27,093 nucleotides of DNA, from contig OMRN01000383.1 in assembly GCA_900313265.1 (NCBI GenBank), positions 1 to 27,093 of the forward strand, read 5' to 3'. Position 1 is the first letter of the stretch; every line of letters starts with the position of its first letter. The DNA comes from an uncultured Lachnospiraceae bacterium (GTDB lineage: Bacteria > Bacillota > Clostridia > Lachnospirales > Lachnospiraceae). A model generated the notes under the pieces. The model had not been told where the DNA came from, searched no databases, and saw only the letters and a list, made by a program, of their open reading frames with translations. Both the position numbers and the translations under genes were made by a program. This document shows positions 7,774-27,093 of this stretch, one piece after another.

Positions 7774-7809
7774 TATAAAGGGTTATTATGGTAAAAAGGA
7801 ATCATGATT

Positions 7810-8979: not shown

Positions 8980-8980
8980 G

Positions 8981-9535: not shown

Positions 9536-9580
9536 AGCGGATTTGCGCTTTGTGAATAAAAGGGGAGAAAAACGTTTTAA

Positions 9581-11140
9581 TTGAAGATTTTACCGGGTTT
9601 TACAAAAGAAACTTTTACAAAAGACCGCGTGTTGGAACTGGTACGCTGGGGGATTTATCTTTGCTGTTTTGTCGGGATGATTCTGCATCTGAATGCACAC
9701 GAGAATGTCTTATATGAAGTTCAGAAGGGACTTCATCGGGATATTGTGTTCATTTTCTTTTTTATTTTTCTTTTTACCCTGCAGAAAATTAAACTGATTA
9801 ACTGGCAGTCTGCGCTTGTAAGCGGAGTCTTTCTGCCGGTTTGCGTTTTTCGTATTCTTTCCTATGCCGGATCTGCGGAACTTTTTCAAACTGCAGTGCT
9901 GGACCATATTGTTTACTGGATGGCATTAATGCTGATTACGGATATGGTAGTAAGCGGAAGGGTGAGATCCTTAAAGAAAGCAAATGTGGCACTTTTTGCA
10001 TTTCTTTGTTTTCTTACGGTCTGGCTTATATATAACAGAGAGGGCCGTGCCGTTCCGTTTTTCTATCTGTACTGTATTCTCCTTTGCCTTATTCCGGTTT
10101 CGGAAAAAGAATGGAACCGGGTAATTGACGCACTGGTTGCTGCAGGTTTTGTCAGCCTGATTGTTGTCATTATCGTTTCGGAAGGGGTAAACCCCGTTGA
10201 AGCGTCTTTAGCCGGAGGAGAAAGGTGGTATGCGTATTTCCTTACACTCGGAACATTCGGGCAGTTTATCGGACTTGAAACGGTGCTTGCTGTGGTGGCT
10301 CTGTTTCGGATTAAAAGCCGTTATCAAAATAGTCTGATACTGTATTTTATCTGTGGAGTATGGCTTTTACTGAATGCGGTACTGGCTCTTCTTTGCGGGG
10401 CATTAAATTATTTTGTCGGACTGACACTGTTTTTGGCGGTACTGTTTGTTTTCGGATTTCGAAAAACCAGATTTCCGTGGCTTGTCATTCGTGCACTTAT
10501 TGCAACTTCCGTCCTTCTGATGGCAGGTATTCTGATTCTGGATGTGATTCCGGTTATTGTTTCGCCGGACTATGATGCGGATGCTGTAATGCGTATAATC
10601 GGATATACTCCTTTGAGGTTCTTTCCGGGAGGTGCACAGGAAGTTGTCGCAAAAATGGAAAGCCTCCACACATACCGTCAGGCAAATTATAATTTTGTAT
10701 CGGACAGTACGGCGTTTCAAAATAATCCGATTATGGTGTTTCTGGATATGCTCGGTTCGGGGAGAGCAAGCATTTGGAATGTATTTCTTGCGAATACATC
10801 TTTTGAACCGAACAGCGGAGGACTTTATATCGGAACATTTTTCGTCCTTCATGCACATAACGAGTTTATCCAGTTAATGTTTGAATACGGATTTTTTGTC
10901 GGAGGAATGAATATTCTGTTCTTTATAATCGGATGGATTGTTGTTGTAATCCGGTATGTAAAGGATAAAAAAGAAATCTTTCTTCTGCCGCTTTTAATGA
11001 TTCCGATGATGCTCGGTATGTGGGTGGGGGAAACTTCATCGGTATTTTATCAGTTGACGGGGATTTCGTTAATCTGTCTTATGACTGTAGTTCTTTTCGG
11101 GATACCGGATAAGACGGGAGAGGAATTAAAAGGTGCATGA
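9581..11140 (+). CDS. Wzy/O-antigen-ligase-like polytopic membrane protein
   Basis: This 519-residue protein has about 11 hydrophobic segments and one long non-membrane loop (~residues 330-420). Near that loop it carries GSGRASIW and then HAHNEFIQLMFEYGFFVGG, the arrangement typical of the Wzy_C/O-antigen ligase superfamily, which polymerises or transfers undecaprenyl-linked glycans on the outer face of the membrane. The reading frame can only open at the TTG at 9581, because a stop codon precedes it directly. The nearest ribosome-like site (AGGGGAG) is unusually far away (about 14 bases), so the start is uncertain. The stop overlaps the next start (ATGA). A second Wzy-like domain occurs at 19479, so one of the two may act as a ligase and the other as a polymerase. 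Confidence 0.8.
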   Translation: MKILPGFTKETFTKDRVLELVRWGIYLCCFVGMILHLNAHENVLYEVQKGLHRDIVFIFFFIFLFTLQKIKLINWQSALVSGVFLPVCVFRILSYAGSAELFQTAVLDHIVYWMALMLITDMVVSGRVRSLKKANVALFAFLCFLTVWLIYNREGRAVPFFYLYCILLCLIPVSEKEWNRVIDALVAAGFVSLIVVIIVSEGVNPVEASLAGGERWYAYFLTLGTFGQFIGLETVLAVVALFRIKSRYQNSLILYFICGVWLLLNAVLALLCGALNYFVGLTLFLAVLFVFGFRKTRFPWLVIRALIATSVLLMAGILILDVIPVIVSPDYDADAVMRIIGYTPLRFFPGGAQEVVAKMESLHTYRQANYNFVSDSTAFQNNPIMVFLDMLGSGRASIWNVFLANTSFEPNSGGLYIGTFFVLHAHNEFIQLMFEYGFFVGGMNILFFIIGWIVVVIRYVKDKKEIFLLPLLMIPMMLGMWVGETSSVFYQLTGISLICLMTVVLFGIPDKTGEELKGA

Positions 11141-13854: not shown

Positions 13855-13939
13855 AAAACGGAACATACGATGTAAAAATCAAAAAACGATAAACAATGAA
13901 CAACAATAAACAGCGTAACAGAAATACGGATTATATAGG

Positions 13940-14716
13940 ATGGAAAAAGTAAAAAAGAGAAGAAAACATAAAATGTACGGACCGTATGAACGATATGTAA
14001 AACGTCCGCTGGATTTTATCCTTTCCCTGACGGCACTTTCGGTTTTAAGTCCGCTTCTTTGCACGGTTTCGATTCTAATTGTATTCGATATGGGGCTGCC
14101 GGTTATTTTTAAGCAGCGCCGGATCGGAAAAGATGACAAAGAATTCAGTCTTTACAAGTTTCGGTCCATGACAAATGAAAGAGATAAAAACGGTGTTTTT
14201 CTTCCGGATGATAAAAGGATAACGAAACTCGGAAGATTTCTTCGAAGGACATCCATTGATGAACTGCCGAGCCTTGTGAATATTCTGAAAGGAGAAATGG
14301 CAATAATCGGTCCGAGACCTTTGCCAACCAGATATTTAACAAGATACAATGAGAAACAGAGACGCCGGCATGAGGTAAGGCCCGGACTGTCCAATCCCGC
14401 AACCGTGAACGGACGGAATGCGCAGACATGGGAGCAGCAGTTTGAAGGGGATGTCCGGTATGTCGATCACATTAGTTTTTTCACCGATTTAAAAAGTGTG
14501 ATTCAGACCGTGAAAGTGGTGCTGTTAAAAGAGGGTGTCACGGCCGACGACGGCGGCGCAAGGGGAGAATTTATCGGCAGTGCGAAAATCGAAGATTTAA
14601 AGACCGATGCCGAAGGAAATTATATGAAACTGAAAGGATTACGGAAAGAGAAAGATGAAAAAGATTTATATTGTCGGAGCCGGAGGACTCGGAAGAGAGG
14701 TCCTTTGGTGGATTAA
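13940..14716 (+). CDS. PglC-like polyprenyl-phosphate phosphoglycosyl transferase
   Basis: Members of this monotopic family move a sugar-1-phosphate from UDP-sugar to undecaprenyl phosphate, starting glycan assembly at the inner membrane face. Visible signatures are YVKRPLDFILSLTALSVL (re-entrant membrane helix), VIFKQRRIGKDDKEFSLYKF, RSMTNERD, the catalytic pair in RTSIDELPSLVNILKGEM, IGPRPLPTRYL and RHEVRPGLSNPATVNGRN. The stretch after RPGL differs from the common G-W-A-Q version. The start is uncertain: ATG 13940 gives a basic 11-residue extension, ATG 13973 gives the usual PglC-like start, and neither has a strong ribosome site. The C terminus runs 62 bases into the next gene in another frame, adding about 20 basic residues. 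Similarity to PglC suggests a bacillosamine-type sugar phosphate substrate. Confidence 0.92.
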   Translation: MEKVKKRRKHKMYGPYERYVKRPLDFILSLTALSVLSPLLCTVSILIVFDMGLPVIFKQRRIGKDDKEFSLYKFRSMTNERDKNGVFLPDDKRITKLGRFLRRTSIDELPSLVNILKGEMAIIGPRPLPTRYLTRYNEKQRRRHEVRPGLSNPATVNGRNAQTWEQQFEGDVRYVDHISFFTDLKSVIQTVKVVLLKEGVTADDGGARGEFIGSAKIEDLKTDAEGNYMKLKGLRKEKDEKDLYCRSRRTRKRGPLVD

Positions 14717-15311
14717 GGATATTAATAAAGTGAAGCCCACATGGGAAATTGAGGGATTCTTAGACGACAACCCAAACGCACTTGACGGTTTGGAATGTGA
14801 TTACCGCATCGTCGGTTCCGTTAAAGATAAAGAACCGGAAGAGGATGAGGAATTTGCACTTGCCGTAGCGTCTCCTGTTTTAAAGAGGGAGATTGTGCAA
14901 ATTCTAAAATCGAAGGGCGCGAAGTTTGCCGCGGTTATTCATCCGACGGCGATGGTAAGTGAATTCGCTCATTACGGAGAGGGTCTTATTTTATTTCCCT
15001 ATTCGAAACTTTCCGTGAATTCCACGGTCGGTGATTTTGTTACGATTCTTTCGTCACCGATCGGTCATGATACCGTAATAGGGGATTATTCCGTTATCAG
15101 CGGAAACTGCAACATCATCCGGAATGTCACAATCGGCAAAGGAGTTTTTCTGGCAGCAGGCGTATGTATTGCACAGGATATTCATGTCGGGGATGATGCT
15201 TATATCGGTCTCGGAAGTGTGGTTTTAAAAGATGTGGAGCCGGGAACAACCGTATTCGGAAATCCGGCGAGGGTTTTACCGAAGAATAAGGTCGGCGGAG
15301 GAAAAGTATGA
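14655..15311 (+). CDS. NeuD/PglD family sugar O/N-acyltransferase
   Basis: This 218-residue protein has the full family layout: a Rossmann-like N terminus (KIYIVGAGGLGREVLWWI) for the nucleotide sugar, and a left-handed beta-helix made of hexapeptide turns from about residue 95 to the end. The His in SSPIGHDTVIGDYSVIS is the likely catalytic base, and the helix closes with VEPGTTVFGNPARVLPKN, the acyl-CoA-side element missing from the paralogue at 8981. The expected reaction is acylation of the C4 amine of a UDP-amino sugar (PglD) or O-acetylation of a sugar. It overlaps the upstream gene by 62 bases and the ligase gene by ATGA. An ACP and an acyl ligase lie directly downstream, so the acyl donor may not be acetyl-CoA. 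Confidence 0.93.
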   Translation: MKKIYIVGAGGLGREVLWWIKDINKVKPTWEIEGFLDDNPNALDGLECDYRIVGSVKDKEPEEDEEFALAVASPVLKREIVQILKSKGAKFAAVIHPTAMVSEFAHYGEGLILFPYSKLSVNSTVGDFVTILSSPIGHDTVIGDYSVISGNCNIIRNVTIGKGVFLAAGVCIAQDIHVGDDAYIGLGSVVLKDVEPGTTVFGNPARVLPKNKVGGGKV

Positions 15312-16849
15312 GAAGCCGGCTTGCGGATCTGTTATATGAAAATGCTGTCAAAACTCCGGATAAAACGGCAATATACTGTGACGGTGAAGAGATTTCCTAT
15401 AAGCAGATGGCGAATCTCGTCAGCCGGTATTCCAATCTGCTCCTTTATCTTGGAGCCGAATACGCAGATCATATTGCCATTCCCATGAACAACAGTATCG
15501 AATCCGTTGCATTATTCTTTACTGCTGCGGAACTCGGGGTCTGTGTGGTTCCGTTAAATCCGTCCCTGCCCGTGGAAGCGGTCAGAACGGCCATGCTTTC
15601 GGCAGATGTAAAGCATGTCATTGCCAGAAAAGCGTTTTATGTGCAGTGCGAGAAAAACGGAGGAATCGATATTCCCGGATTTGCGATTTGTCTGGATAAA
15701 GAATATCCCGGGACGGTTCCTTTTAAAACGATTGATGAAATGTCGAATTTCCGTCCTGAGGAGATACATGATATCAGCGGTTTGGAGAGCCTTATTCTTA
15801 CCATGACTTCCGGATCTACCGGCTCTCCGAAGCCGATTGATTTAAGTCAGGATAATAAGTATGACCGGGCTATGGCACATATCCGTGTCTATAATCTTAC
15901 AAAAGACGACCGGATTCTGGCGGCAACGCCTCTTTATCATTCGCTGGCGGAAAGGCTGGTCATTTTGCCGTTGATTCTGGGAGCGTCGTCCATACTGCTT
16001 CCGCGTTTTACACCGGCTTTGTGGCTTAAATGTGCGGAAGATTTAAAGCCGACGTTTACGATTGTCGTATCGGCACAGCTTGCACAGATCCGCGAACTTC
16101 TCGGAGATTCCGAAGAAAACCGGATTGGCAGTTTCCGCTCGATTGTATCTTCGTCCGCGCTTTTGGAACCGCTCGTAAAATACGATTTGATTCGTATTCT
16201 AGACTGCGAGTTTCACGAAATGTACGGAACTTCGGAGGTTTCAACGGTTACCGATATCTGTTTTCAAAAGGATAAAAGGAAGAAAAATTCTGTGGGAAAA
16301 CCGTTTGACGAAGCGAACATCCGCATCCTTCGCAACATAAACGAAACGACGGATGAGACGGACTGTGTTTGCGGAGAAGTCGGGGAAATAGCCGTTAAAT
16401 CAAAACTTCAATGCAAGGGATACTATAAGCAGGAGGAAATAATGAAATCGTCAATGGCCGGTGATTACTTCCGGACGGGTGATTTAGGCTATCTTGACGA
16501 GGACGGATATCTGTACTTTTTCGGAAGAAAGAAGGAATTAATCATTACCGGGGCGGTGAATGTATATCCAAGCGATATCGATACGGTAGTCGGGAAAATG
16601 CCGGAAATCAAGGAGTGTGCGGCTTTTTCCTATCCGGATGAAAGGCTCGGTGAGGTGGTGGCGCTGGCCATTGTTCCGAAAGAGGGAGCCGAGATTAATC
16701 TGCATGCCGTTAAGACGTATTGTGCACGGAATCTCGCCGATTTCCAGCAACCGCATAAATATTTTATCGTGGATGCCCTTCCGAGAAATGCGATGGGAAA
16801 ACTTCTGCGAATGACCATACTCGATGCCGTTCGTAAGATGAACTTATAA
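15308..16849 (+). CDS. AMP-dependent acyl ligase (class I adenylate-forming enzyme)
   Basis: The enzyme would activate a carboxylic acid as an acyl-AMP and pass it to a thiol, here probably the carrier protein encoded 38 bases downstream. The phosphate-binding loop TMTSGSTGSPK lies at residues 165-175. It is followed by ATPLYHSLAERL, EMYGTSEV, the GEVGEIAV and FRTGDLGYLDEDGYLYFFGRKK hinge region split around residues 360-405, and the C-terminal catalytic lysine K498 in PRNAMGKLLRM. All key residues appear present and length (513) is normal. Substrate cannot be read safely; the family includes fatty-acid, hydroxy-acid and amino-acid activating members. Its place between a sugar acyltransferase and an ACP suggests it supplies the acyl group for an N- or O-acylated sugar. 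The start overlaps the previous stop (ATGA), so translation is coupled. Confidence 0.92.
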   Translation: MRSRLADLLYENAVKTPDKTAIYCDGEEISYKQMANLVSRYSNLLLYLGAEYADHIAIPMNNSIESVALFFTAAELGVCVVPLNPSLPVEAVRTAMLSADVKHVIARKAFYVQCEKNGGIDIPGFAICLDKEYPGTVPFKTIDEMSNFRPEEIHDISGLESLILTMTSGSTGSPKPIDLSQDNKYDRAMAHIRVYNLTKDDRILAATPLYHSLAERLVILPLILGASSILLPRFTPALWLKCAEDLKPTFTIVVSAQLAQIRELLGDSEENRIGSFRSIVSSSALLEPLVKYDLIRILDCEFHEMYGTSEVSTVTDICFQKDKRKKNSVGKPFDEANIRILRNINETTDETDCVCGEVGEIAVKSKLQCKGYYKQEEIMKSSMAGDYFRTGDLGYLDEDGYLYFFGRKKELIITGAVNVYPSDIDTVVGKMPEIKECAAFSYPDERLGEVVALAIVPKEGAEINLHAVKTYCARNLADFQQPHKYFIVDALPRNAMGKLLRMTILDAVRKMNL

Positions 16850-16886
16850 AAAAACGAACTTAAAAGGGGTTTAATCAGGAAGAAAA

Positions 16887-17150
16887 ATGGAAGAAATAAG
16901 GAACTTTATTGTAGATTATATCGAACGGGAATATACAATTCCGGGAGGAACCGATTTGGACCGGTTTAATTATGTGGAAGAAGGATATATTGATTCCATC
17001 GGACTGATTCAGTTTATTGCCGTAATCGAAGATGAATACGGAATTGAGTTTTCCGATGAGGAACTTTCCGGGGAAGAAATAAAAACGGTCGGGAGTCTTG
17101 TGAAACTGATATGTGAAAAGAGAGATTTCTATATGGGGGAAGGATGTTAA
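16887..17150 (+). CDS. Stand-alone acyl carrier protein
   Basis: This is an 87-residue acidic, all-helical carrier protein. The phosphopantetheine attachment serine is S37 in EEGYIDSIGLIQF, a D-S-I variant of the usual D-S-L. The third-helix region (EDEYGIEFSDEELSGEEIKT) matches ACPs of dedicated ligase/ACP systems more than fatty-acid AcpP, which has a D-S-L-D motif. The ribosome site is AGGAAG, 5 bases before the ATG. It sits 37 bases after the adenylating ligase and ends one base before the oxidoreductase start, so it forms a functional unit with the ligase. A phosphopantetheinyl transferase must come from elsewhere in the genome. Confidence 0.93.
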   Translation: MEEIRNFIVDYIEREYTIPGGTDLDRFNYVEEGYIDSIGLIQFIAVIEDEYGIEFSDEELSGEEIKTVGSLVKLICEKRDFYMGEGC

Positions 17151-17151
17151 G

Positions 17152-18327
17152 ATGAAGGATATCGTAACAATCGGCGTGGTCGGTGCAGCGCGTGCACTTG
17201 AACTTCATGCATTCGGATATAAGCGTTCGAATATTCCGTGCCGTTTAAAAACGGTTATGGCCAGACGCCCGGAACAGATTAACCGGGCCGTTGAGTTATA
17301 TGGTTTTGAAAAAGGAACCACCGACTTTGAGGATCTTTTAAACGACCCGGAAATCGATGTCATTGATATATGTACGCCTCCGTATGTTCATAAGGAAGGT
17401 ATCATCAAAGCCATGAAAGCGGGAAAACATGTTATCTGTGAAAAACCGCTGGTTGGCTATTTCGGTCAGCCGGGAGATCCGGAACCAATCGGAGAAAAGG
17501 TTTCCAAAAAAGTGATGTATGAGTACCTGTTAAAAGAACTGGAAGATATTGCAAAGGTACGAAAAGAAACCGGAAAGAAGCTGATGTATGCGGAGAATTT
17601 CGTATATGCTCCTGCGGTACTGAAAGCCGGAGAAATCATTCGGGCAAGGAAAAGCCGAATTCTTTATATGAAAGGAGAGGAGAGTTTAAAAGGCTCCAGT
17701 TCACCGGTCGCCGGGGAGTGGAAAAAAACGGGCGGCGGTATTTTTATGAGAAACGGAGTGCATCCTCTTGGCGCAATTCTTTATTTAAAGGAACAGGAAT
17801 CGCTGGCACTGGGCCGGAACATTACGGTAAAAAGTGTCATCGGAGATATGGGATATGCAACAAAAAGTTTAAACGAGCATGAGCACCGGCACATAGAAGC
17901 AAGGCCTCAGGATGTGGAAGATGCGGGAACGGCAATTCTTACTTTTACGGACGGAAGTAAAGCCACGATTATTTCTACGGATAATCTTCTTGGCGGAAGT
18001 AAGAATTATGTGGAAATTTATGCAAACGATGCTGCCATAAACTGCCGGCTGACCATGAATGATGCGATGGAAACATATATGGTAGATGATGAGGGTATGG
18101 AAGGCGTTTATCTTTCCGAGATGCTTCCCATCGTCACGGGGTGGAACAAGCCTTTTGTCGCGGATGAAATGCTTCGCGGATACTGTAACGAGATTGTGGA
18201 TTTTATGGGTGCGGTTTTGGAAGACCGTGAACCGGAGGGTTGTTTTGAACTTGCCGCACAGGTCATGAAGGTTACATATGCGGCATATTATTCGGCAGAA
18301 GAAGGCCGGAGAATCGATCTGGTGTAA
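17152..18327 (+). CDS. Gfo/Idh/MocA family NAD(P)-dependent oxidoreductase
   Basis: A Rossmann fold (TIGVVGAARALELHAFGY) is followed by the family signature ICTPPYVHKEGI and the catalytic EKP at residues 97-99 in HVICEKPLVGYF. The second domain has GGGIFMRNGVHPLGAILYL with the likely active-site H204. Members oxidise or reduce hydroxyl groups of sugars, inositols and UDP-sugars. An extra charged stretch after EKP (about 104-135) is longer than in short members. At 391 residues it is a normal size. The ATG at 17152 is used because the GGGGGAAGGA site lies 7 bases upstream; the longer form would begin inside the ACP gene. In this locus it probably modifies a nucleotide sugar (for example C3 oxidation before amination or epimerisation), but the substrate is not known. 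Confidence 0.9.
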   Translation: MKDIVTIGVVGAARALELHAFGYKRSNIPCRLKTVMARRPEQINRAVELYGFEKGTTDFEDLLNDPEIDVIDICTPPYVHKEGIIKAMKAGKHVICEKPLVGYFGQPGDPEPIGEKVSKKVMYEYLLKELEDIAKVRKETGKKLMYAENFVYAPAVLKAGEIIRARKSRILYMKGEESLKGSSSPVAGEWKKTGGGIFMRNGVHPLGAILYLKEQESLALGRNITVKSVIGDMGYATKSLNEHEHRHIEARPQDVEDAGTAILTFTDGSKATIISTDNLLGGSKNYVEIYANDAAINCRLTMNDAMETYMVDDEGMEGVYLSEMLPIVTGWNKPFVADEMLRGYCNEIVDFMGAVLEDREPEGCFELAAQVMKVTYAAYYSAEEGRRIDLV

Positions 18328-18369
18328 TTTCTTAAGATGTATAAATTATGAAACGAAGGACGGACAGAC

Positions 18370-19479
18370 ATGAGAGTACTTGTATTCGGAATGAGCGGAA
18401 GATTAACGGGCGGAATCGAAACGTTCTTACTTAATATGAGTAAGTTCATGAGCAGTGAATGTATTTTTGACTATGTCATCATGGACGGTATGAATATTCA
18501 TTCCGAAACGATTCGAAAAAACGGAGGGAAAAGCTATGCGGTTGCACCTCTTCGGGAGAATCCCCTTCGCAGTTTTGTGATGCTTTATAAGGTGATTCGA
18601 AAAAACCGTTTGTCTCATCCGGTTGCCTATTTTAATCTGTTTTCCATGGTACATGTTGTTCCGATTCTTTTATGCCGCATAAGCGGCTACCGGATTGTTC
18701 TTCATGCTCACAACAGCAATCTTCAGCAAAACAGCAGATTATACCGCTTTCTGCATAAAACCGGCCGGTTATTGCTAGAAAGGATGAAGTGTCTTCGTAT
18801 AACGAATTCGCCTGCTTCCGCGGCGTTTATGTTCGGGAAGGGATCAAAGGCAGGAATTGTCTACAATGCCATTGATGTGGACCGTTTTCGATTTAATCCC
18901 GGTATTCGTAAAAAAGTACGTGAGGAATACGGTCTCGGTAAAAAAATTGTTGTCGGTTTTTCGGGCAGGCTCTCTTCTCCGAAGAATCCTCTGTTTTTGG
19001 TGGAAATCTTTAATGAATTCCATAAACTTTGCGGGGACAGTGTCCTTATGATAGCCGGAGACGGAGAACTGTCTGAGGCGATGAAGAAGAAAGTCGGAGA
19101 GTACGGGCTTACAAAAGATGTTATTTTTCTCGGACATGTGAAGGATGTGGAAAAGTATTATCAGGCATTCGATTTATTTATTATGCCGTCGCATTTTGAG
19201 GGACTCGGAATCGCGCTTGTGGAAGCACAGAGTGCGGGGCTTCCGGTTGTGACATCCAAAGACGTGGTTCCGGCTATCGCAACCGTAACGAAACAGTGTA
19301 AAAGAGTAAGCGTAAAGAGTCCGGCAAAAATCTGGGCTGCGGATAGTATGAAACTATTCCGGGAATGGGAAGGAATGAACCGGGACGATGCTTATGAGAT
19401 TATGAAGAGTTCAAAATATAACATTCGAAGAGAATCGCGTAAACTGGAGTATCTGCTTATGCGCGAGGGAAAACGTTAA
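18370..19479 (+). CDS. GT4-type glycosyltransferase (GT-B fold)
   Basis: This 369-residue enzyme has the GT4 layout. The N-terminal domain holds FGMSGRLTGGIETFLLNMSK, with the glycine loop that contacts the acceptor and donor, and HAHNSNLQQ near residue 115. The C-terminal domain has VVGFSGRLSSPKNP, LMIAGDGEL, VIFLGHVKDVEKYYQAFD, and the nucleotide-sugar site MPSHFEGLGIALVEAQSAGLPVV, which carries the E-x7-E pair. No membrane helix is apparent, so it acts at the inner face of the membrane on an undecaprenyl-linked acceptor. It is the only recognisable glycosyltransferase in the locus besides the initiating enzyme. The stop overlaps the next start (TAATG). It resembles EpsF-type exopolysaccharide transferases; donor and linkage are unknown. 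Confidence 0.93.
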   Translation: MRVLVFGMSGRLTGGIETFLLNMSKFMSSECIFDYVIMDGMNIHSETIRKNGGKSYAVAPLRENPLRSFVMLYKVIRKNRLSHPVAYFNLFSMVHVVPILLCRISGYRIVLHAHNSNLQQNSRLYRFLHKTGRLLLERMKCLRITNSPASAAFMFGKGSKAGIVYNAIDVDRFRFNPGIRKKVREEYGLGKKIVVGFSGRLSSPKNPLFLVEIFNEFHKLCGDSVLMIAGDGELSEAMKKKVGEYGLTKDVIFLGHVKDVEKYYQAFDLFIMPSHFEGLGIALVEAQSAGLPVVTSKDVVPAIATVTKQCKRVSVKSPAKIWAADSMKLFREWEGMNRDDAYEIMKSSKYNIRRESRKLEYLLMREGKR

Positions 19480-21860
19480 TGAAAGGTAATATTACAAAGG
19501 AAAAACCGCAGAGAGAAAAAAAGAATGTTCTGTATATTCTGCGCTGTATATACAGCGTGTTTATCGGCATCCTGCCGCTTTTAATGTTTGTGCGGCTGCC
19601 GTTTACCGAATACGGTCTCGGGACATTTTTTGCGCTTCTTTTTGTTCCGTTTGTTGTATTTTGTATGATTAAGGAACGAAAGAAGTTTAATTTTGACGGA
19701 ATCTGTCTGATTGTATTTTTTGTCTATATTTTAATTCGAAGCATAAACAGCAAATCGGCGCTTTTATGTTATATGGCTGCATTCATACACATTACGGGCA
19801 TATATGCCACCATCGAATGGAAGGTATTAAAAAAGACAATCGTTTCCGTTTCGATTTTTTCGTCCCTGGCTGTATTGTACCAGCGTTATCTGCTTTTATT
19901 CGGACTTAAGGTATCCTTTCTTCCGAATCCGATTCTGCTTTCCGAGTTTGCCAAGAAATCCTCGTTATACGACGGGAAAACATTCATCCGTACCTCGGGA
20001 ATTTTTATCGAGCCGTCGCATTTTGCGGAGTATGCACTGATCGGGCTGATTTTTCTTGTTATTACGGCAAATGCGAGAAAGGTAAAAAAATCGGATTATC
20101 TATGGGCGTTTATCATTTCACTGGCGATTCTGGGAAGTACATCCGGAGTGGGAATTGCGGGTCTTGCAGGCGTAATAGGATTTTATATTCTGTTTGTCGG
20201 ATTCGGTGAAAAACAGCCGGTTTATAAACGTTTCATCGTCCTCATTTCCATTATGGTTTTAGGCTTCGGTCTGATGTTTCTTATTCCGACAACCAGATAT
20301 TCCTTAATCCGGATTTGGGGAAAGGTGAATAAATACAATGCCGTATGGGGAAGAACGGCACATTTTAAATATTATATGAGTGAGATTACCGGAGCGGCTC
20401 AGTGGATATTCGGAAAAGGCGCAACGGAATTCGAACATTTTCTGCTGGCATTTGCCAAAATCATTTATCAGTTCGGTTTCATCGGGCTGGCACTTCTTAT
20501 CGGATCACTGGGGAGCTTTGTTTTTAAGAAAAACCGGACGGTGATGGCGATAAGTCTTTTATACATCGGATTCTTATTCTCTACCGGTTTGGTACGCTTC
20601 CTTAATCTGATTTTTTATTTCGGTGTTATTATGGCGGCGCAGGCTACCTTCCGTGAAATTGTTAAACAAAGAACGGAGGGAACGAATCATTCTTTACGGG
20701 AAAACAGGCCGAAGAAACTGGGACTGGTCACATACAGCAATTATAATTACGGTTCGGCACTTCAGTGCTATGCCACACAAAAGTATTTTTCCCAAAAAGG
20801 ATGCGAGTGTGTACTGATTGAAAAAAATGACGGAAAATTCGAAGCAAAACTGGATCAGATTATTAATGCGATACTTGCCGGAATCATTTCTCCGGGCAGC
20901 ATAAAGCAGATTGCCGCACGTCTTAAGGCACAAAGTGCAAAGAGTCTGACTCTGACGGCGGAATCGGTCAATGCCGTGAAGACTTTTAAAAAATCCTTTG
21001 TTCAAACCGAGCAGTATTCGCATGAGGAACTTTATGAAGAGGGAGACTCGCCGGATTATGATTATTTCCTTGCCGGAAGCGATCAGGTCTGGAACGGGGA
21101 CCGGATTGACGGCTATGACATGTTCTTTTTACGGTTTGCCGCGAAAGAGAAACGAATTGCCTGGGCTCCGTCCTTTAGCGGAGAGAGTGTTGCAAAATAT
21201 AATCTGGCTAAGTACAGGAAATATATTTCCGCTTTTTTCAAACTGTCCGTTCGGGAAGAAACCGGCCGGAAACTGGTTTATGATCTGACAAAACGTGAAG
21301 CGGAAGTTTTATGCGATCCTGTTATGCTGCTTTCCAAAGAAGAATGGCAAAAGGAGTATAAGGATCATACGAATATTCATTTGCCGGAATCCTTCGTTAT
21401 GGCGTTTTTTATTGACGAACCATCCGAAAAAGCGATTTCGATGCTTCGTAAATTCTCATCGGAAAACAGGATGATTGTATCCTTTGGTTATCGCTATGCG
21501 CCTTATAAGGAGATTGCCTCGATGAACCATATCGACGGATCCCCTTATGATTTCTTAAATCTTTTGGACAATGCTTTGTATGTTGTTACGGATTCATACC
21601 ACGCGACGGTTTTCTCGGCTTTGTTTCACAAGCCTTTTCTGGTTTATGAACGAAATTATACACACGCACAGAACCAATCGGTAAGAATCAAAGATTTCCT
21701 GAATGATATCGGAGCATCCGACCGGTGGGAGGTTTCGTCGCAGTCGGATCCCGGAAGGTTATCCGATGACAGCGAAGTATATGTTCGCACGGATATGTAT
21801 TTAAAACGCATGAAGGAAAAAGCGGACGCCTATACGGAACCTCTTTTGGGAAACGGGTAA
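19479..21860 (+). CDS. Fusion of Wzy-like polymerase and polysaccharide pyruvyl transferase
   Basis: Residues ~15-395 are a polytopic membrane domain with about 10-11 helices and features of Wzy/O-antigen polymerases, including TSGIFIEPSHFAEYALIGL, GSTSGVGIAGLAG and the loop WGRTAHFKYYMSEITGAAQW. After a short linker rich in Arg, Asn and Ser (~398-413) comes a complete PF04230 polysaccharide pyruvyl transferase domain: GLVTYSNYNYGSALQCYATQ, FLAGSDQVWNGDRIDGYD, VREETGRKLVYDL, AEVLCDPVMLLS and VTDSYHATVFSALFHKPFLV. Such domains add a pyruvate ketal to a sugar from PEP. The fusion gives 793 residues in one open frame. At the joint (20675-20680) there is a strong GGAGGG ribosome-like site but no in-frame ATG, GTG or TTG nearby, consistent with two formerly separate genes. 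The transferase domain should lie in the cytoplasm, where PEP is available. Confidence 0.88.
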   Translation: MKGNITKEKPQREKKNVLYILRCIYSVFIGILPLLMFVRLPFTEYGLGTFFALLFVPFVVFCMIKERKKFNFDGICLIVFFVYILIRSINSKSALLCYMAAFIHITGIYATIEWKVLKKTIVSVSIFSSLAVLYQRYLLLFGLKVSFLPNPILLSEFAKKSSLYDGKTFIRTSGIFIEPSHFAEYALIGLIFLVITANARKVKKSDYLWAFIISLAILGSTSGVGIAGLAGVIGFYILFVGFGEKQPVYKRFIVLISIMVLGFGLMFLIPTTRYSLIRIWGKVNKYNAVWGRTAHFKYYMSEITGAAQWIFGKGATEFEHFLLAFAKIIYQFGFIGLALLIGSLGSFVFKKNRTVMAISLLYIGFLFSTGLVRFLNLIFYFGVIMAAQATFREIVKQRTEGTNHSLRENRPKKLGLVTYSNYNYGSALQCYATQKYFSQKGCECVLIEKNDGKFEAKLDQIINAILAGIISPGSIKQIAARLKAQSAKSLTLTAESVNAVKTFKKSFVQTEQYSHEELYEEGDSPDYDYFLAGSDQVWNGDRIDGYDMFFLRFAAKEKRIAWAPSFSGESVAKYNLAKYRKYISAFFKLSVREETGRKLVYDLTKREAEVLCDPVMLLSKEEWQKEYKDHTNIHLPESFVMAFFIDEPSEKAISMLRKFSSENRMIVSFGYRYAPYKEIASMNHIDGSPYDFLNLLDNALYVVTDSYHATVFSALFHKPFLVYERNYTHAQNQSVRIKDFLNDIGASDRWEVSSQSDPGRLSDDSEVYVRTDMYLKRMKEKADAYTEPLLGNG
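20675..20680 (+). promoter_or_regulatory. Vestigial ribosome-binding-like site at the domain joint
   Basis: The GGAGGG core sits exactly in the linker between the polymerase and pyruvyl transferase domains. Eight bases later only an out-of-frame ATT occurs; in frame the codons encode Asn-His-Ser-Leu. It looks like a remnant of a former gene boundary or a pausing site. Confidence 0.35.
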
Positions 21861-21870
21861 AGTGGTAAGA

Positions 21871-23367
21871 ATGAATAAAAAAGCGGGCATTACAAAAATC
21901 AATATTGCGTGTTCCGTGCTGCTTCAGTTAACCGTTATCGCCGGCGGGATTGTGATTCCGAGAATTATTCTTACGCTGTTCGGGTCTGAAGTAAACGGTC
22001 TGGTTTCTTCCGTCAATCAGTTCCTGAATTATATCCAGCTTGTGGAGGGCGGACTCGGCGGTGTTGTCATGGCAGCATTGTATAAGCCTTTGCATGATAA
22101 AGACATGAAAAGTGTTTCGGAAATTTATTGTCATTCGGCTCATTTTTTCAGGCAGATCGGTTTTATCTATATAGCATATCTGGTTATTTTAGCCATTGTG
22201 TACCCGCTTCTCGTAAATACGGGATTTGGATATTTTTACAGTGTGGCACTGATTGTTGTGCTCGGTGTGAATCTGGCGGTTCAGTATTTTCTGTCGGTGT
22301 CCTACCGGCTTTTGCTGAATGCTGACAGGAAAGTTTATGTGGTGACTTTGATTCAGTCCGTGATTAATATTCTGAATGTTGCCTCTGCGGTTTTCTGCTT
22401 TTATTTCTTCAAAGATCTGCTTTTTATCAAAATCATCAGTGCACTCATTTTTCTGATTCAGCCGGTTGTATTTTCCGTCTATGTTAAGAAACACTATCCG
22501 ATTGAGAATAATCTTCCGTTGAAAAAAGGGGTCTTAAGCCAGCGATGGGTGGCGTTCGGTAATAATTTTGCTTATTTTGTCCACAGGAATACCGATATTG
22601 TGGTTCTGACCGTATTTTCCACACTGTCGACGGTTTCGGTATACTCGGTTTATATGATGGTTGTTATAGCATTAAGAGGTGTAATTGAGGCGGTCTCTAC
22701 CGCATTCGTTCCGTCCTTCGGAAAAGCACTGGCCGGAGGGGACAGGGAGGAACTGGCCAAAACCTTTGACATATACGAATTTGTCGTTCAGATTTCGAGT
22801 TATGTTCTTTTTTCCTGCTGCCTGATACTGATTGTTCCTTTTGTCATGATCTATACGATGGGAATTAACGATGCGGATTATTATCAGCCGGTTTTTGCCG
22901 TACTGATTGTTATTGCGGAGTTTATATGCGGTATTCGGGAACCCTTTATTCGCGCGGCATCCGCTGCGGCCATGTTTAAAAAAGTTGCACCTCATGCTTT
23001 TATCGAAGCGGCGCTCAATATAATGATTTCCCTTATTCTGATCGGAAAATACGGGATTGCCGGAGTGGCAGTCGGAACGATAGTTGCAATGGTATACCGG
23101 ATGATTGCGCAGATGGTTTTGGTAGGAAAAGGAATTCTTCACCGTTCGATGGCAAAATCCGCTTTAAGAACGGTCGTGCTTGTTATCGTATTATTGGGGA
23201 CGTATTTTCTGTTCGGATGGTTTGGCCCGAATGGCATTGAAAGTATAGGGGCATGGATTGTTTACGCTGTCATAACATTTGTAATTCAGTGTATTGTAGC
23301 GGCAATGCTTGGCATGATTTTATACCGGAATGCAATGACGTCATGCTTTAAGAAACGCGAAAAGTGA
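21871..23367 (+). CDS. Wzx-like lipid-linked oligosaccharide flippase
   Basis: This ~498-residue protein of the MOP superfamily has 12-14 hydrophobic segments. It starts ITKINIACSVLLQLTVIAGG, then VIPRIILTLFGSEVNGLVSS, a common opening in Wzx/RfbX-type exporters of Firmicutes. It would move the finished undecaprenyl-linked unit across the membrane for the polymerase. The ATG at 21871 is chosen over the GTG at 21862, though neither has a strong ribosome site; the gene begins about 10 bases after the polymerase fusion stop. It closes the glycan gene run. A perfect 7-base hairpin (23385-23404) follows the stop but has no T run. Confidence 0.88.
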   Translation: MNKKAGITKINIACSVLLQLTVIAGGIVIPRIILTLFGSEVNGLVSSVNQFLNYIQLVEGGLGGVVMAALYKPLHDKDMKSVSEIYCHSAHFFRQIGFIYIAYLVILAIVYPLLVNTGFGYFYSVALIVVLGVNLAVQYFLSVSYRLLLNADRKVYVVTLIQSVINILNVASAVFCFYFFKDLLFIKIISALIFLIQPVVFSVYVKKHYPIENNLPLKKGVLSQRWVAFGNNFAYFVHRNTDIVVLTVFSTLSTVSVYSVYMMVVIALRGVIEAVSTAFVPSFGKALAGGDREELAKTFDIYEFVVQISSYVLFSCCLILIVPFVMIYTMGINDADYYQPVFAVLIVIAEFICGIREPFIRAASAAAMFKKVAPHAFIEAALNIMISLILIGKYGIAGVAVGTIVAMVYRMIAQMVLVGKGILHRSMAKSALRTVVLVIVLLGTYFLFGWFGPNGIESIGAWIVYAVITFVIQCIVAAMLGMILYRNAMTSCFKKREK

Positions 23368-23384
23368 CCGTCTGCTTCGTTAAA

Positions 23385-23404
23385 ATCCGTTTCGGGGAAC
23401 GGAT
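23385..23404 (+). terminator. Hairpin after the flippase gene, weak terminator candidate
   Basis: ATCCGTT (23385-23391) pairs perfectly with AACGGAT (23398-23404) over a 6-base loop. No T run follows, so it could slow RNA decay or act as an inefficient terminator rather than a full intrinsic one. Confidence 0.3.
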
Positions 23405-23520
23405 GTGGATGCGGAATGAATAAACATTATATAAACATTGAATTTATCATTTTAAACTCCGGCAAAATATGGTAAGGTTATAGTAGGGTAGTTTGTAACT
23501 GTTTTATGGGGGGATGTTTT

Positions 23521-24861
23521 ATGGCTATAATTCTGCTGGTTGACGATGAATCTTCCAAGCTTGAACAAACAAAGCAGATGCTGGAAGAATCATACGACCT
23601 CTTATGCGCTGCTTCCGCCAGGGAGGCGCTTTCTGCCTGCGAGAGCGTGAAACCGGATTTGGTTATCACCGATTTTATGATGCTTGATATTACCGGTTTT
23701 GAAATGCTTCAGATTCTGCAGGATTTCTACATGGAGAAATTCCCTGTTATTTTTATGACGGAAGATTCCACGGAAGAAGCCGACGGAAGAGAGTACTTCC
23801 ATTCGGGAAATGTTGAATTTCTCACCAAACCGGTGGAACAAAGTCTTTTACTTGATACAATAGCGGACCTTATGTCACACAGGGATGATATCGAAGAAGC
23901 GGAAATCACCATTGACAAGCTGACGGGGTTTTTATACGAAACCGGAATTACCGAGCATTTTCCAGCGGCCTGTGCCGGTAAACAGGGGACGCTGATGATT
24001 GTGGATCTGGACAGTTTCAAACTCATCAACGACCTTTACGGCTATGAGGTGGGAGATAATGTTTTAGGTAATTTTGCGGATATTTTAAAGAATAATTTAA
24101 AAGATGATGATCTTTTCGGCAGAGTCGGAGGCGACGAGTTTATCATTTTTACGACGGATATTATTACGGAAGGGGAGCTTGCCGATTTTACCAACCGTGT
24201 TAACAAACAGCTTGTGATTCGCTCCAGGGAACTGTTAAGCGGAGAGAGAATGATCCCTCTCGGCGTTTCCATCGGGGCGGTTTTTGTTCCGAAATCCGGA
24301 ACGAATTACGACGAACTGTACATTCTGGCCGAAAAGGCGCTGGAAATGGTAAAGCAGAACGGAAAGCACGGTTATGTGGTTCACCATGAAGTCGGAAAAA
24401 TCGATGTTTTCGACTCGGATCCGGAAGAGGATATGCGAAGACTCAGCCATATTCTGGAACAGAATAACGATTCGGACACGGCTTTATGGTTAAACCAGGA
24501 CGATTTCAGCAGTGTATACCGTTTTCTGTCGCGTTTTCTTGCCCGTTATCAGGATGAGAATGCGTACGGAAAAGCCTATAAAGTATTATTTACCATCATT
24601 CCGAATGACGAAAATATGGACGGCGAACGTTTTGAGGAAATTGTCCGCCGGTTCGGGGATACGGCAGTCAAGCAGCTTCGTAAAAGCGATTTGATGATGC
24701 AGAGCAAGAACAACCAGTTCCTGCTTCTGTTGCCGGTTCTGGATGAGAAATACGTCAATGTGGTAATTCAGCGAATCAAACTCAGGTTCTTCAGAAGCGG
24801 TCTGATGAGTGAAGTTTCCATTCTTCATACCGAGGAACTGGCCGATTTCTCGAATCACCGC
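23521..24861 (+). CDS. REC-GGDEF response regulator with a second, degenerate GGDEF domain
   Basis: Residues 1-120 are a CheY-like receiver with the acidic pair D8-D9, phospho-acceptor D51 in LVITDFMMLD, the Thr in VIFMTEDS and the Lys in FLTKPVE. A GGDEF domain follows (~135-285), with VDLDSFKLINDLYGYEVGD and intact GRVGGDEF (203-207), so diguanylate cyclase activity is expected; its I-site Arg is Lys (K194, D197). A third region (~355-440) has the same fold pattern (YKVLFTIIPND, then LRKSDLMMQSKNNQFLLLLP) with KNNQF in place of GGDEF but an intact RxxD at R387-D390. The ATG at 23521 is chosen because GGGGGG lies 7 bases upstream. No histidine kinase is adjacent. It may link a signal to glycan or envelope output through c-di-GMP, which is inference from location. 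Confidence 0.9.
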
Positions 24862-24908
24862 TGATGATTTTATCATCATAATTCGAAAGCCGGAAAAATT
24901 CAGGTCAG

Positions 24909-26846
24909 ATGCGAAAAAAAGAAAAGAACAATTCATACGGGTTAAAAAAGCTTGCCGGGATTATATTCATAATTCCGGTATGTCTTGTTATGAGCATTTT
25001 TCCGGCATGTAACAAACCGGAACCGGACCCTTTGGAGGAAGAAGTAATTGCCTGGGAAAAGGATACTTTTCCGCAGTATGATATGGACGGATATTACGAG
25101 GAAGACCAGATTCTTCTGCCTAGATTTTCCCATTCTTTTGCGGGTTTTGCCGAGGTGGAGGGAAGGCAGGGCGTGGCCTGGGAAAACGGAATGTATTATG
25201 TTTCCGGGACCGGTTCTTTGTGGAAGTATAATGCGCACTGGCGACAGGCCGGAGTTAACAGATTCCCGTTTCGTGAGATTCCGGACAGCGTGAATCATAT
25301 CGGGGATATCGATGTCTATAACGGAGAGATTTATGCGGCGGTCGAATACTTTAATGCCGGCAGTTCAAAGAATCCGATGGTGGCGATTTATGATGCAAAA
25401 ACGCTGAAGTTTAAACAGTCTTTTCCGATTGATGCATCGAGCGGTCAGACGGAAATATCCGGGGTCACGGTAGACTACGATAACCGGATTATCTGGACCT
25501 GCTGCTGGACGCAGGGCGAATGCGGCAGATATCTTTATAAATACGATCTTTTAAGCAAAAGGTATCTTGGAAAGGTTCAGCTTCAGGCAATGCCCTCGCA
25601 GGTGCAGGGAATTGCGTATTACGACGGATGGATTTATCTGTCGGCGGATGACGGAGATGCGGATTTAAAAGAACCGGATCATGTTTACCGTTGTCAGGTT
25701 GACCTTTTAAAAAGTGCATTCCGTGTGGGGATGGAACAGGAAATAAGTGACGTGACTATGCTCGGAGAACTCGAGGGGATTACGTTTGACAAAGCAAATC
25801 TTCGGATGGTTGTCGTGTATAACTACGGAATTCGTATCCGGCTCGGCAAATCCTACGGTTTCTATCCGGGATTTGACAGGGAAATTCATGAAGTATACAC
25901 CTATGATCTTAAGAAAAAAATCCGTCCGGTCGATTATTCCGCGTCTGTCAACTGGGTGGAAAAACCGGGAACGCTTTCGCATGATGCGGATGTGTTTATG
26001 ATTCTTCCTGCGGTTGATGCACACAATACAAAGCGCGGAAATGAGGATATCACGAATAACCATACCGTGGGATTATTCCGTAAAACACTGAATATGGAAA
26101 AAGGAATTGTGGATGGTTCGGCGGACATTTATGCACCCCTTTACCGTCAGGCGACCATCGGCTGCTATATTCAGGATGACGGTTATGCAAGCGACCGAAG
26201 CGATTCGGTAAGCGGAGGTGCCGGATATGCCGATCTGGCCTATTCGGATATACGTTCCGCATGGAGTTATTATGCGAAAAATCTGAACAATTCACGTCCG
26301 GTTATTCTGTTCGGATACGGCGAGGGCGGGGATATGGCGCTTCGGCTGTTAAAGGAATTCGGCGATGAGGGAATTTTAAAAGAACGTCTGGTGGCGGCTT
26401 ACATTATCGGAACCGGAGTGACGGAGGAAGACCTTTCGAAATATCCGTATTTACAGATGGCCGGGGGCGAGGAAGATACCGGTGTCATCGTCAGTTTTAC
26501 CGCAATGAATCCCGATGCGGCCATGCTTCTTTCCAAAGAATATGCCATTAACCCGCTGAACTGGAAAACGGACAATACCGCAGCCGGAAAGAGACTGAAC
26601 AAGGGATGTGTGCGTGTGTCCTCTCTCGGAATTGTTACGGATACTTATCCGAATTTCTGCGGGGCTTATCTGGATGAGGCAAGCGGACGGCTGATTGTAA
26701 CCAACATGGAAAATTCCGATGCGGTTATTCGTAAAGAGGAAGGTTATTATCCTCCGGGAGATTATACGGCATATGATTTAATGCTTTTTTACCGGAATTT
26801 GGAAGAAAATGTCGGAAAGAGGATTCATGCATTTTTGGCACAATGA
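24909..26846 (+). CDS. Putative lipoprotein: beta-propeller-like half joined to a DUF3089-like hydrolase half
   Basis: The N terminus (KKLAGIIFIIPVCLVMSIFPACNKPEPD) fits a lipoprotein signal with Cys at about residue 35, though the lipobox F-P-A-C is weak. Residues ~60-350 have repeated short beta motifs (GVAWENGMYYVSGTGSLWKY, IGDIDVYNGEIYAAVEYF, VTVDYDNRIIWTCCW, GIAYYDGWIYLSADDGD, LEGITFDKANLRMVVVY) like a propeller. From ~357 the sequence follows DUF3089 alpha/beta hydrolases: ADVFMILPAVDAHN, VDGSADIYAPLYRQA, RPVILFGYGEGGDMALRLL, NPLNWKTD and YDLMLFYRNLEENVGKR. The usual G-x-S-x-G elbow reads G469-Y-G-E-G473, so the serine nucleophile is replaced by G471, and the late His position appears to be T620. 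It is therefore probably not an active esterase. It starts 45 bases after the GGDEF gene and may be co-transcribed with it. Confidence 0.78.
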   Translation: MRKKEKNNSYGLKKLAGIIFIIPVCLVMSIFPACNKPEPDPLEEEVIAWEKDTFPQYDMDGYYEEDQILLPRFSHSFAGFAEVEGRQGVAWENGMYYVSGTGSLWKYNAHWRQAGVNRFPFREIPDSVNHIGDIDVYNGEIYAAVEYFNAGSSKNPMVAIYDAKTLKFKQSFPIDASSGQTEISGVTVDYDNRIIWTCCWTQGECGRYLYKYDLLSKRYLGKVQLQAMPSQVQGIAYYDGWIYLSADDGDADLKEPDHVYRCQVDLLKSAFRVGMEQEISDVTMLGELEGITFDKANLRMVVVYNYGIRIRLGKSYGFYPGFDREIHEVYTYDLKKKIRPVDYSASVNWVEKPGTLSHDADVFMILPAVDAHNTKRGNEDITNNHTVGLFRKTLNMEKGIVDGSADIYAPLYRQATIGCYIQDDGYASDRSDSVSGGAGYADLAYSDIRSAWSYYAKNLNNSRPVILFGYGEGGDMALRLLKEFGDEGILKERLVAAYIIGTGVTEEDLSKYPYLQMAGGEEDTGVIVSFTAMNPDAAMLLSKEYAINPLNWKTDNTAAGKRLNKGCVRVSSLGIVTDTYPNFCGAYLDEASGRLIVTNMENSDAVIRKEEGYYPPGDYTAYDLMLFYRNLEENVGKRIHAFLAQ

Positions 26847-26856
26847 GAAAAGGATT

Positions 26857-26886
26857 GTTGTATTTTTACAACCCGGAAAAATCCGG
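26857..26886 (+). terminator. Two short adjacent hairpins after the lipoprotein gene
   Basis: GTTGT/ACAAC (26857-26872) and CCGGA/TCCGG (26873-26886) form perfect 5-base stems back to back. The sequence after the second is A/T-rich but not a T run, so this is a weak terminator candidate. Confidence 0.35.
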
Positions 26887-26901
26887 ACGGTAAATTTTAA
26901 A

Positions 26902-26930
26902 TTGACAGAACGATAAAAATAGTTTATTCT
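26902..26930 (+). promoter_or_regulatory. Strong sigma-A promoter at the right edge
   Basis: A consensus TTGACA (26902-26907), a 17-base spacer and TATTCT (26925-26930) make this the best -35 box in the window. Transcription would begin near 26937, about 45 bases before the start codon of the short reading frame at 26982. Both hexamers overlap the inverted repeat described separately. Confidence 0.8.
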
Positions 26931-26935
26931 GTCAA
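26902..26935. repeat. Perfect 9-base inverted repeat spanning the -35 and -10 boxes
   Basis: TTGACAGAA (26902-26910) and TTCTGTCAA (26927-26935) are exact reverse complements separated by 16 bases. The left arm contains the -35 hexamer and the right arm overlaps the -10 hexamer. Since it lies upstream of the start point it acts as DNA, and would suit two repressor half-sites about 25 bases apart. Confidence 0.6.
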
Positions 26936-26981
26936 AGGATAAACACTTTGTCCTTTTAAAGTACTATAGTGGAGACAAAAA

Positions 26982-27093
26982 ATGACTTTCGGTAAAAGTA
27001 ATGCACAATTAAATAAGGCATCCGCTTTTGCTTTTTCCTTTTTCAAAGCCTTTTCTTTTGAAGGCTTTTATTGGCGTTGGTATTTTAAGAATG
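26982..27093 (+). CDS. Phe/Tyr/Trp-rich short reading frame, probable attenuator leader peptide (cut by window edge)
   Basis: An ATG with a GGAGAC ribosome site 5 bases upstream opens a frame of 37 codons to the edge. Of its residues 16-35, 12 are aromatic: seven Phe (at 16, 18, 20, 21, 24, 26, 29) then Tyr30, Trp31, Trp33, Tyr34 and Phe35, ending FYWRWYF. No ordinary protein N terminus looks like this. A ribosome stalling in this run when charged Phe, Tyr or Trp tRNA is scarce would be the classical attenuation mechanism seen for pheL and trpL leaders. The controlled genes would be aromatic amino acid biosynthesis genes beyond 27093. Without the terminator/antiterminator region in view the mechanism is inferred. 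The alternative is the start of an unusual membrane peptide. Confidence 0.7.
   Translation, partial: MTFGKSNAQLNKASAFAFSFFKAFSFEGFYWRWYFKN
27045..27068 (+). promoter_or_regulatory. Hairpin within the leader reading frame
   Basis: AAAGCCTT (27045-27052) and AAGGCTTT (27061-27068) form a perfect 8-base stem around an 8-base loop, placed over the Phe codons and directly before the Tyr-Trp-Arg-Trp run. In attenuators such a stem is the pause or 1:2 hairpin, whose right arm can also pair with a later segment outside this window. Confidence 0.55.

Follow-up and report, generated by a model that had tools for sequence, protein, structure and literature searches.

A putative leader peptide and attenuator for aromatic amino acids before a pheA-aroF-trpB2 operon in a Lachnospiraceae genus

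A contig of an uncultured Lachnospiraceae bacterium ends inside a short open frame crowded with codons for Phe, Tyr, and Trp, and the question raised is whether this frame encodes the leader peptide of an attenuator controlling aromatic amino acid synthesis or is the cut start of something else. The window, i.e., the whole stretch of 27,093 nucleotides analysed here, is the entire contig C128 of a genome designated G000 (2.24 Mb in 477 contigs, 73% complete), and nothing past 27093 is readable at the leader locus in this genome. On the basis of sequence comparison with close relatives, we consider that the frame very probably belongs to a ribosome-mediated transcription attenuator before a pheA-aroF-trpB2 operon, and that the leader probably reads all three of Phe, Tyr, and Trp. 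The original prediction, made from the window, had proposed an aromatic leader peptide with an attenuator; its observation of the aromatic-rich frame is confirmed, and its attenuator interpretation is supported, though the window alone cannot show it.

The leader frame and its homologues

The frame occupies 26982..27093 on the plus strand, where 37 codons can be seen before the contig end cuts it. The segment 26982-27092 is stop-free and translates as MTFGKSNAQLNKASAFAFSFFKAFSFEGFYWRWYFKN, in which 12 of residues 16-35 are Phe, Tyr, or Trp, exactly as originally counted; codons for Phe-Tyr-Trp-Arg-Trp-Tyr-Phe at 27066..27086 (plus strand) are assigned as the control codons from the translation and from their conservation in relatives. 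In all six frames of the window, no other stop-free stretch of 20 residues contains 12 or more aromatics. Dinucleotide shuffles of the whole window reached 12 aromatics in 20 residues in 0 of 60 cases and 10 in 6 of 60, and local shuffles gave an open frame with 12/20 aromatics in 0 of 2000. We have here a short frame with clustered codons for the amino acids of the pathway, as expected of a leader attenuator.

When 99 genomes, among them G000, were searched at the protein level, strong homologues of the leader (E 3e-11 to 3e-8) were found in seven of the 30 other genomes of the same genus (G002, G004, G015, G018, G024, G025, and G028), and all genomes with such homologues belong to this genus. 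The homologous leaders have 41-43 codons, and in 7/7 the stop codon lies six codons past the last whole codon of the window. The sequences AFAF, FF, and Y-W-R-W-x-F are invariant in all eight leaders, the window included, so that both a stop within a few codons and conserved aromatic codons, which the original prediction had anticipated for related leaders, are present in 7/7 relatives. Indels within the frame among the eight leaders are multiples of three, and pN/pS is 0.41 when all eight are compared in pairs.

Twelve weak protein matches (E 0.03-0.9) were also obtained, and the seven that were read (in G048, G089, G083, G075, G031, G073, and G002) were judged to be chance or unclear. A frame at L010 in G048 contains YWVWYYKN, which resembles the leader end; it is preceded by an in-frame TGA, and no aromatic gene was recognised adjacent to it. 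When a leader profile was compared with 397 genomes of the family (334 genera), a sample containing few other genomes of the leader's genus, six matches were obtained at E <= 0.01. Two of these are in G000 and G015; the remaining four (E 0.002-0.008), in frames beside which no aromatic gene was recognised, were judged to be chance. The leader sequence family looks restricted to the genus to which G000 belongs.

Signals for expression of the frame are found immediately upstream. The sequence GGAG at 26971..26974 (plus strand), 7 bases before the ATG, provides the ribosome binding site that had been predicted, and a sigma-70-type promoter match, TTGACA-17-TATTCT, is located at 26902..26930 on the plus strand. 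Inspection of the alignment by eye places TTGACA...TATTCT or TATCCT at the same position in G002, G004, G015, and G025, and a shifted promoter, TTGAC...TAAAGT, further down in G018, G024, and G028. The promoter of the original prediction thus stands as a match whose place is common to four of the relatives, but not as a statistical signal of the single sequence, for which one match in the region compares with a shuffle mean of 1.4, i.e., the chance level. Because single-sequence statistics are at the chance level, both this promoter and the hairpin described below rest on conservation in relatives.

Between the promoter and the leader, an inverted repeat of fixed length, CACTTTG...TAAAGT, is found at 26944..26962 on the plus strand, and ACTTTG-N7-AAAG occurs by eye at the same spacing in 8/8 leader genomes. 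Its exact pattern is present in 6/31 genus genomes, namely in four at the leader and in two (G012 and G022) elsewhere, where it takes the same place before an AMP-ligase-like gene (L196 and L191, respectively); the reversed control pattern matched in 2/31 genus genomes. Considered as a candidate operator of an aromatic regulon, the repeat is possibly the binding site of a regulator.

Downstream genes and the layout of the leader RNA

In 7/7 relatives the leader is followed by an intrinsic terminator, a stand-alone prephenate dehydratase gene (pheA), a DAHP synthase gene (aroF), and then trpB2, which encodes a TrpB-like protein. The trpB2 gene is whole in G004, G015, G025, and, on a second contig, G024, and its start is seen before the contig end in G002, G018, and G028. 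In an NCBIfam search with the three G025 proteins, DAHPS (TIGR00034) and TrpB-like (PRK12391) scored over the cut-offs, and the prephenate dehydratase was found at 8e-63, under its cut-offs. The three genes are those for making the amino acids that the leader is proposed to sense. DAHP synthase, which had been named as the expected target, turned out to be the second gene behind the leader in the relatives, with pheA first and the TrpB-like gene third, and the expectation of aromatic biosynthesis genes downstream holds for 7/7. Neither of the outcomes that would have spoken against the original prediction, a frame continuing as a long protein or an unrelated next gene with no terminator, was seen.

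In the visible sequence of G000, the leader's own stop codon, the segment called region 2 below, and the terminator are absent, the contig ending first; the same segment as in the relatives would be expected there. A search of the G000 assembly (73% complete) for prephenate dehydratase and DAHP synthase gave no match; the former query, which also had no match in G001 and G013, matches 28/31 genus genomes, and the latter was used without such a control. Another G000 contig, C146, begins 32 bases before trpB2, the ATG being 33 bases in. Its TrpB2 is 98% identical to that of G025, the genes after trpB2 are the same next genes as in G004, and 30 of the 32 bases before trpB2 match by eye the aroF-trpB2 spacer of G024. 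Since C146 opens just ahead of trpB2 and neither pheA nor aroF was located in the assembly, both genes most likely fall into the gap that separates C128 from C146.

On the other side of the leader, gpmI is directly upstream in G018, G024, and G028, and one frame lies between them in G025 and G004. The window has gpmI at 6094-7668, and the region between gpmI and the leader (about 7804-26846) carries genes that look by eye like an exopolysaccharide cluster, which may be an insertion in the G000 lineage. Near the other end of the contig, a further gene of the aromatic pathway, aroA-like (3-phosphoshikimate 1-carboxyvinyltransferase), is located at 623-1915 on the minus strand (TIGR01356, E 1.8e-64, below the curated cut-off).

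The leader RNA of the seven relatives contains complementary segments that can form mutually exclusive pairings, as had been expected for an attenuator. Region 1 (UACCUUUUUCC) lies over the Phe codons, and region 2 (GGGAUGAAGGUA) contains the leader stop codon. Region 2 can pair either with region 1 or with region 3, the latter pairing being the antiterminator GAUGAAGG/CCUUUAUC, and regions 3 and 4 make up the terminator GGCCCTGTCC-TTTATC-GGACAGGGC, which is followed by a T-rich tail in 7/7 relatives (the loop is TTTGTC in G028), in agreement with the T run that had been foreseen. Over the seven relatives, pairing energies are -14.1 to -19.0 kcal/mol for 1:2, -15.6 to -18.7 kcal/mol for 2:3, and -20.8 to -24.2 kcal/mol for 3:4. 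In G024 the leader stop codon is UAA, not UGA, and the pairing is kept.

Of these pairing elements, the window holds only region 1 and a hairpin. The region 1 core, CCTTTTTC, is at 27037..27044 on the plus strand over the Phe codons, its partner region 2 falling beyond the contig end, and two flanking positions (27036 and 27045) differ from the relatives. The hairpin, also over Phe codons and inside the 1:2 loop, is at 27045..27068 on the plus strand; its arms AAAGCCTT (27045-27052) and AAGGCTTT (27061-27068) are exact complements over 8 bases, just as first noticed. It is assigned from this exact repeat and from covariation in the relatives, where no pair is invariant, 97.5% of cells are paired, and two pairs have changed on both sides; a comparable hairpin is present in L082, L083, L084, L110, and L146. 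The fold of 124 nt of the window is as stable as those of shuffles (z = -0.01; 94/200 as good).

Helices were counted in an alignment of the seven relatives and G029 (8 genomes). In the helices of 1:2, the hairpin, and the terminator, taken together, paired cells make up 98.1% of 264, versus 36.8-62.5% when the helices are slid by 1-3 columns; neither this percentage nor the covariation score was attained by any shuffle (0/500), and 68/500 had at least as many pairs with changes on both sides. In the antiterminator, 88/88 cells are paired over the 8 genomes with one compensatory change, U-A to C-G, in G029, whose leader stop codon has also moved; these values are reached by 126/500 shuffles, because the clade is nearly invariant there. 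Covariation support for the terminator and the antiterminator, both of which hardly vary in the clade, is thin.

In the proposed mechanism, expression of the operon would be set by the supply of charged aromatic tRNAs. RNA polymerase would start at the promoter and probably pause at the Phe-codon hairpin while a ribosome begins the leader, and we infer that a pause hairpin placed in the 1:2 loop keeps polymerase and ribosome in step. When charged tRNAs are sufficient, the ribosome would reach the stop codon inside region 2 and mask this region; the 3:4 terminator would then form and transcription would stop. Stalling on codons for Phe, Tyr, or Trp would leave region 2 free, and formation of 2:3 would allow transcription of the genes. 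For the stall geometry we used the size of the ribosome footprint, the last aromatic codon being at least about 25 nt from region 2 in alignment columns. Without translation, 1:2 and 3:4 would both form, and transcription would stop.

T-boxes, trpB2, and the proposed sensing of Trp

T-boxes were detected in 31/31 genus genomes, in 30 of them over the Rfam cut-off, and none was found at the leader, which fits the original remark that many Clostridia use T-boxes instead. Among 24 trpB2 loci found, 15 were scanned for a T-box. A T-box lies 68-224 nt before the trpB2 match in G003, G005, G007, G010, G014, G017, G021, and G029 (70-86 bits against a gathering score of 93; E 4e-17 to 3e-13), and a ninth, in G023, was recognised by comparing the positions of T-boxes and trpB2. 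No T-box was found before trpB2 in the scanned G004, G015, G024, and G025 of the leader clade, in G000 of the same clade, where only 32 bases before trpB2 exist for scanning, or in G012 and G022. The spacing between the aroF and trpB2 matches is 41-123 bases in the seven relatives versus 371-424 in four sisters; a T-box takes about 220, and the spacer of the leader clade is therefore too short for one.

All eight trpB2 T-boxes have TGG after GTTGAA, which we take to be the position of the specifier codon, and with UGG at that place they appear to be of the Trp type. Among the eight genomes with these T-boxes, six have a Phe/Tyr leader and G029 has a Phe-rich one, and no leader was found in G017. 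Thus, among the leaders found within the genus, Trp codons occur only in those whose operon includes trpB2. Outside the genus, leaders with Trp and no trpB2 found are known (e.g., L082, L110, L120, and L146), so this rule is not general.

Leader composition appears to track the operon within the genus: Phe/Tyr or Phe where trpB2 has its own T-box, and Phe/Tyr/Trp where trpB2 directly follows aroF. We are somewhat inclined to explain this by a sensor swap, in which an ancestral Trp T-box between aroF and trpB2, kept in the sisters, would have been lost in the window's lineage, and a peptide leader with Tyr-Trp-Arg-Trp, at the head of a shorter pheA-aroF-trpB2 operon, would have taken over Trp sensing, one leader then reading all three aromatic amino acids. 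In the same proposal, pheA of rumen Clostridia and Treponema would more widely be controlled, as a common arrangement, by peptide leaders rather than T-boxes, the leader sequences being unrelated but built on one layout. Replacement of one RNA sensor class by another becomes testable among close relatives, and a leader with all three aromatics where the Trp T-box is missing should interest specialists. Attenuation by a peptide leader of the classical type is indicated here for aromatic synthesis in Lachnospiraceae whose genomes make use of T-boxes as well.

One sister locus, L223 (G005:C20, 1355-12010), looks like a shikimate super-operon headed by a Phe/Tyr leader; its last gene, trpB2, is preceded by a Trp-type T-box, and this one cluster combines two classes of RNA sensor. 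Its elements are arranged as leader, CM-PDT, aroB-like, aroC-like, aroE-like, aroQ-like, aroA-like, tyrA-like, aroF, J-domain-like, T-box, and trpB2, where gene names were given by eye and PDT, aroF, and trpB2 were assigned by tblastn.

An alternative that we regard as rather unlikely, though worth weighing, is that the same attenuator senses in practice Phe only and that the YWRW stretch is incidental. The predominance of Phe codons in the leader and the first place of pheA among the genes would suit this explanation, as would the Phe-rich G029 leader, which has a single Tyr and lacks Trp, and the absence of Trp from several distant leaders. It accords poorly with the invariance of Y-W-R-W-x-F in 8/8 leaders while neighbouring residues vary, and with an operon that includes aroF and trpB2; moreover, leaders without Trp occur in sister genomes whose trpB2 has a T-box.

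We consider it highly improbable that the leader RNA is itself a T-box or another tRNA- or ligand-sensing riboswitch with an untranslated frame. The occurrence of T-boxes throughout the genus, and their position before trpB2 in sister genomes, give this explanation its plausibility, whereas conservation of the coding type, a stop codon inside region 2, and the lack of Rfam matches at leader loci stand against it. All 4227 families of Rfam release 15 were scanned. Ten weak matches at E up to 10 were obtained for window positions 26700-27093, none over its family cut-off, the best being to an sRNA family (E 0.089, below the cut-off), and no match at E up to 1 was found in eight leader loci (L076-L081, L083, and L132). 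At the gathering score, a further 20 pheA loci of the genus and 20 of the 80 wider loci gave no match either; T-boxes may be overlooked at this threshold, those before trpB2 having lower scores. The T-box family RF00230 gave no match at the leader, with the detected genus T-boxes as positive control.

The DNA is indeed T-rich there, and the contig end cuts the frame before any stop codon, but the frame is hardly likely to have arisen by chance or to begin an ordinary protein, because 7/7 homologues stop six codons on and are then followed by a terminator, no local shuffle reproduced the frame, and pN/pS is 0.41 across the eight leaders.

Known systems and other aromatic leaders

The attenuator favoured here would add to known ones such as E. 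coli pheL-pheA and Corynebacterium aroR-aroF. According to PMC11802643, E. coli pheL is a Phe-rich leader before the prephenate dehydratase gene, regulated by charged tRNA-Phe. Our leader resembles it in being Phe-rich and upstream of such a gene, but differs in having Tyr and Trp as well, in its Lachnospiraceae operon pheA-aroF-trpB2, and in showing no sequence match to it in the Rfam scans; the E. coli enzyme is described there as fused to chorismate mutase (PMC11802643), whereas that of the leader clade is unfused. The aroR leader of C. glutamicum also has several aromatics (Phe-Tyr-Phe) before a DAHP synthase operon, and it is described with Phe and Tyr only (PMC11802643, PMC4046766); it belongs to another phylum and has another sequence, and the Lachnospiraceae leader has Trp and its operon trpB2. 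The Acholeplasma candidate uORFC-13-1 is similar as described in PMC8632094, being an upstream frame whose U run encodes Phe, with a terminator ahead of aroF, but it has a short Phe signal, occurs in other organisms, and targets aroF directly. Histidine leaders of Firmicutes (hisS/hisZ; his operons) are likewise classical peptide leaders in a T-box-rich phylum, and exchange between T-box and leader is described for them in PMC2965389 and PMC9413887; the amino acid, genes, and sequences are different. The Trp-type T-box of sister genomes presumably controls the same trpB2 gene, but it is a tRNA-binding RNA with no peptide and is absent in the leader clade. In a literature search with weak coverage of subscription journals, we recognised no account of a pheA gene preceded by an aromatic leader in either Clostridia or Treponema.

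Within the genus, 12/31 genomes have a different leader, typically MNAIG..NSKLNNGFYYFIQAYFYVSLFAFYF..RTE, before chorismate mutase-prephenate dehydratase; the layout is the same, and the leader stop codon lies within sequence that is complementary to the loop of the terminator. No leader was found in eight genus genomes (G006, G012, G017, G019, G020, G022, G027, and G030). In a wider scan of genome contigs, the best 80 of 546 relatives were kept, of which 78 had enough upstream sequence. An automatic test for an aromatic leader plus terminator was passed by 21/78 loci versus 1/1560 shuffles; many of these loci are related, so that the counts are not of independent events, and the test missed at least three true cases (L077, L079, and L080) through a crude estimate of gene starts. 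The 21 passing loci belong to Lachnospiraceae, Ruminococcus, other Clostridia, and Treponema or related spirochaetes, and pairing between stop region and terminator beats shuffles (p<0.05) in only 11 of them. Judged from these sequences, the aromatic-leader kind of control is much wider than the leader sequence family.

Two further leader types were observed. In Ruminococcus and other Clostridia (L119, L121, L123, L137, L150, L152, and L155), leaders with a YARFYAG core stand before pheA; the pairing between stop region and terminator did not beat shuffles in L119, L121, L123, L150, and L155. In Treponema and Spirochaetaceae (L085, L090, L097, L107, L135, and L139), short Phe/Tyr-rich frames of a separate type precede a pheA-type gene, and a terminator that has TTCTATTCTTTATCG as its core comes after each frame.
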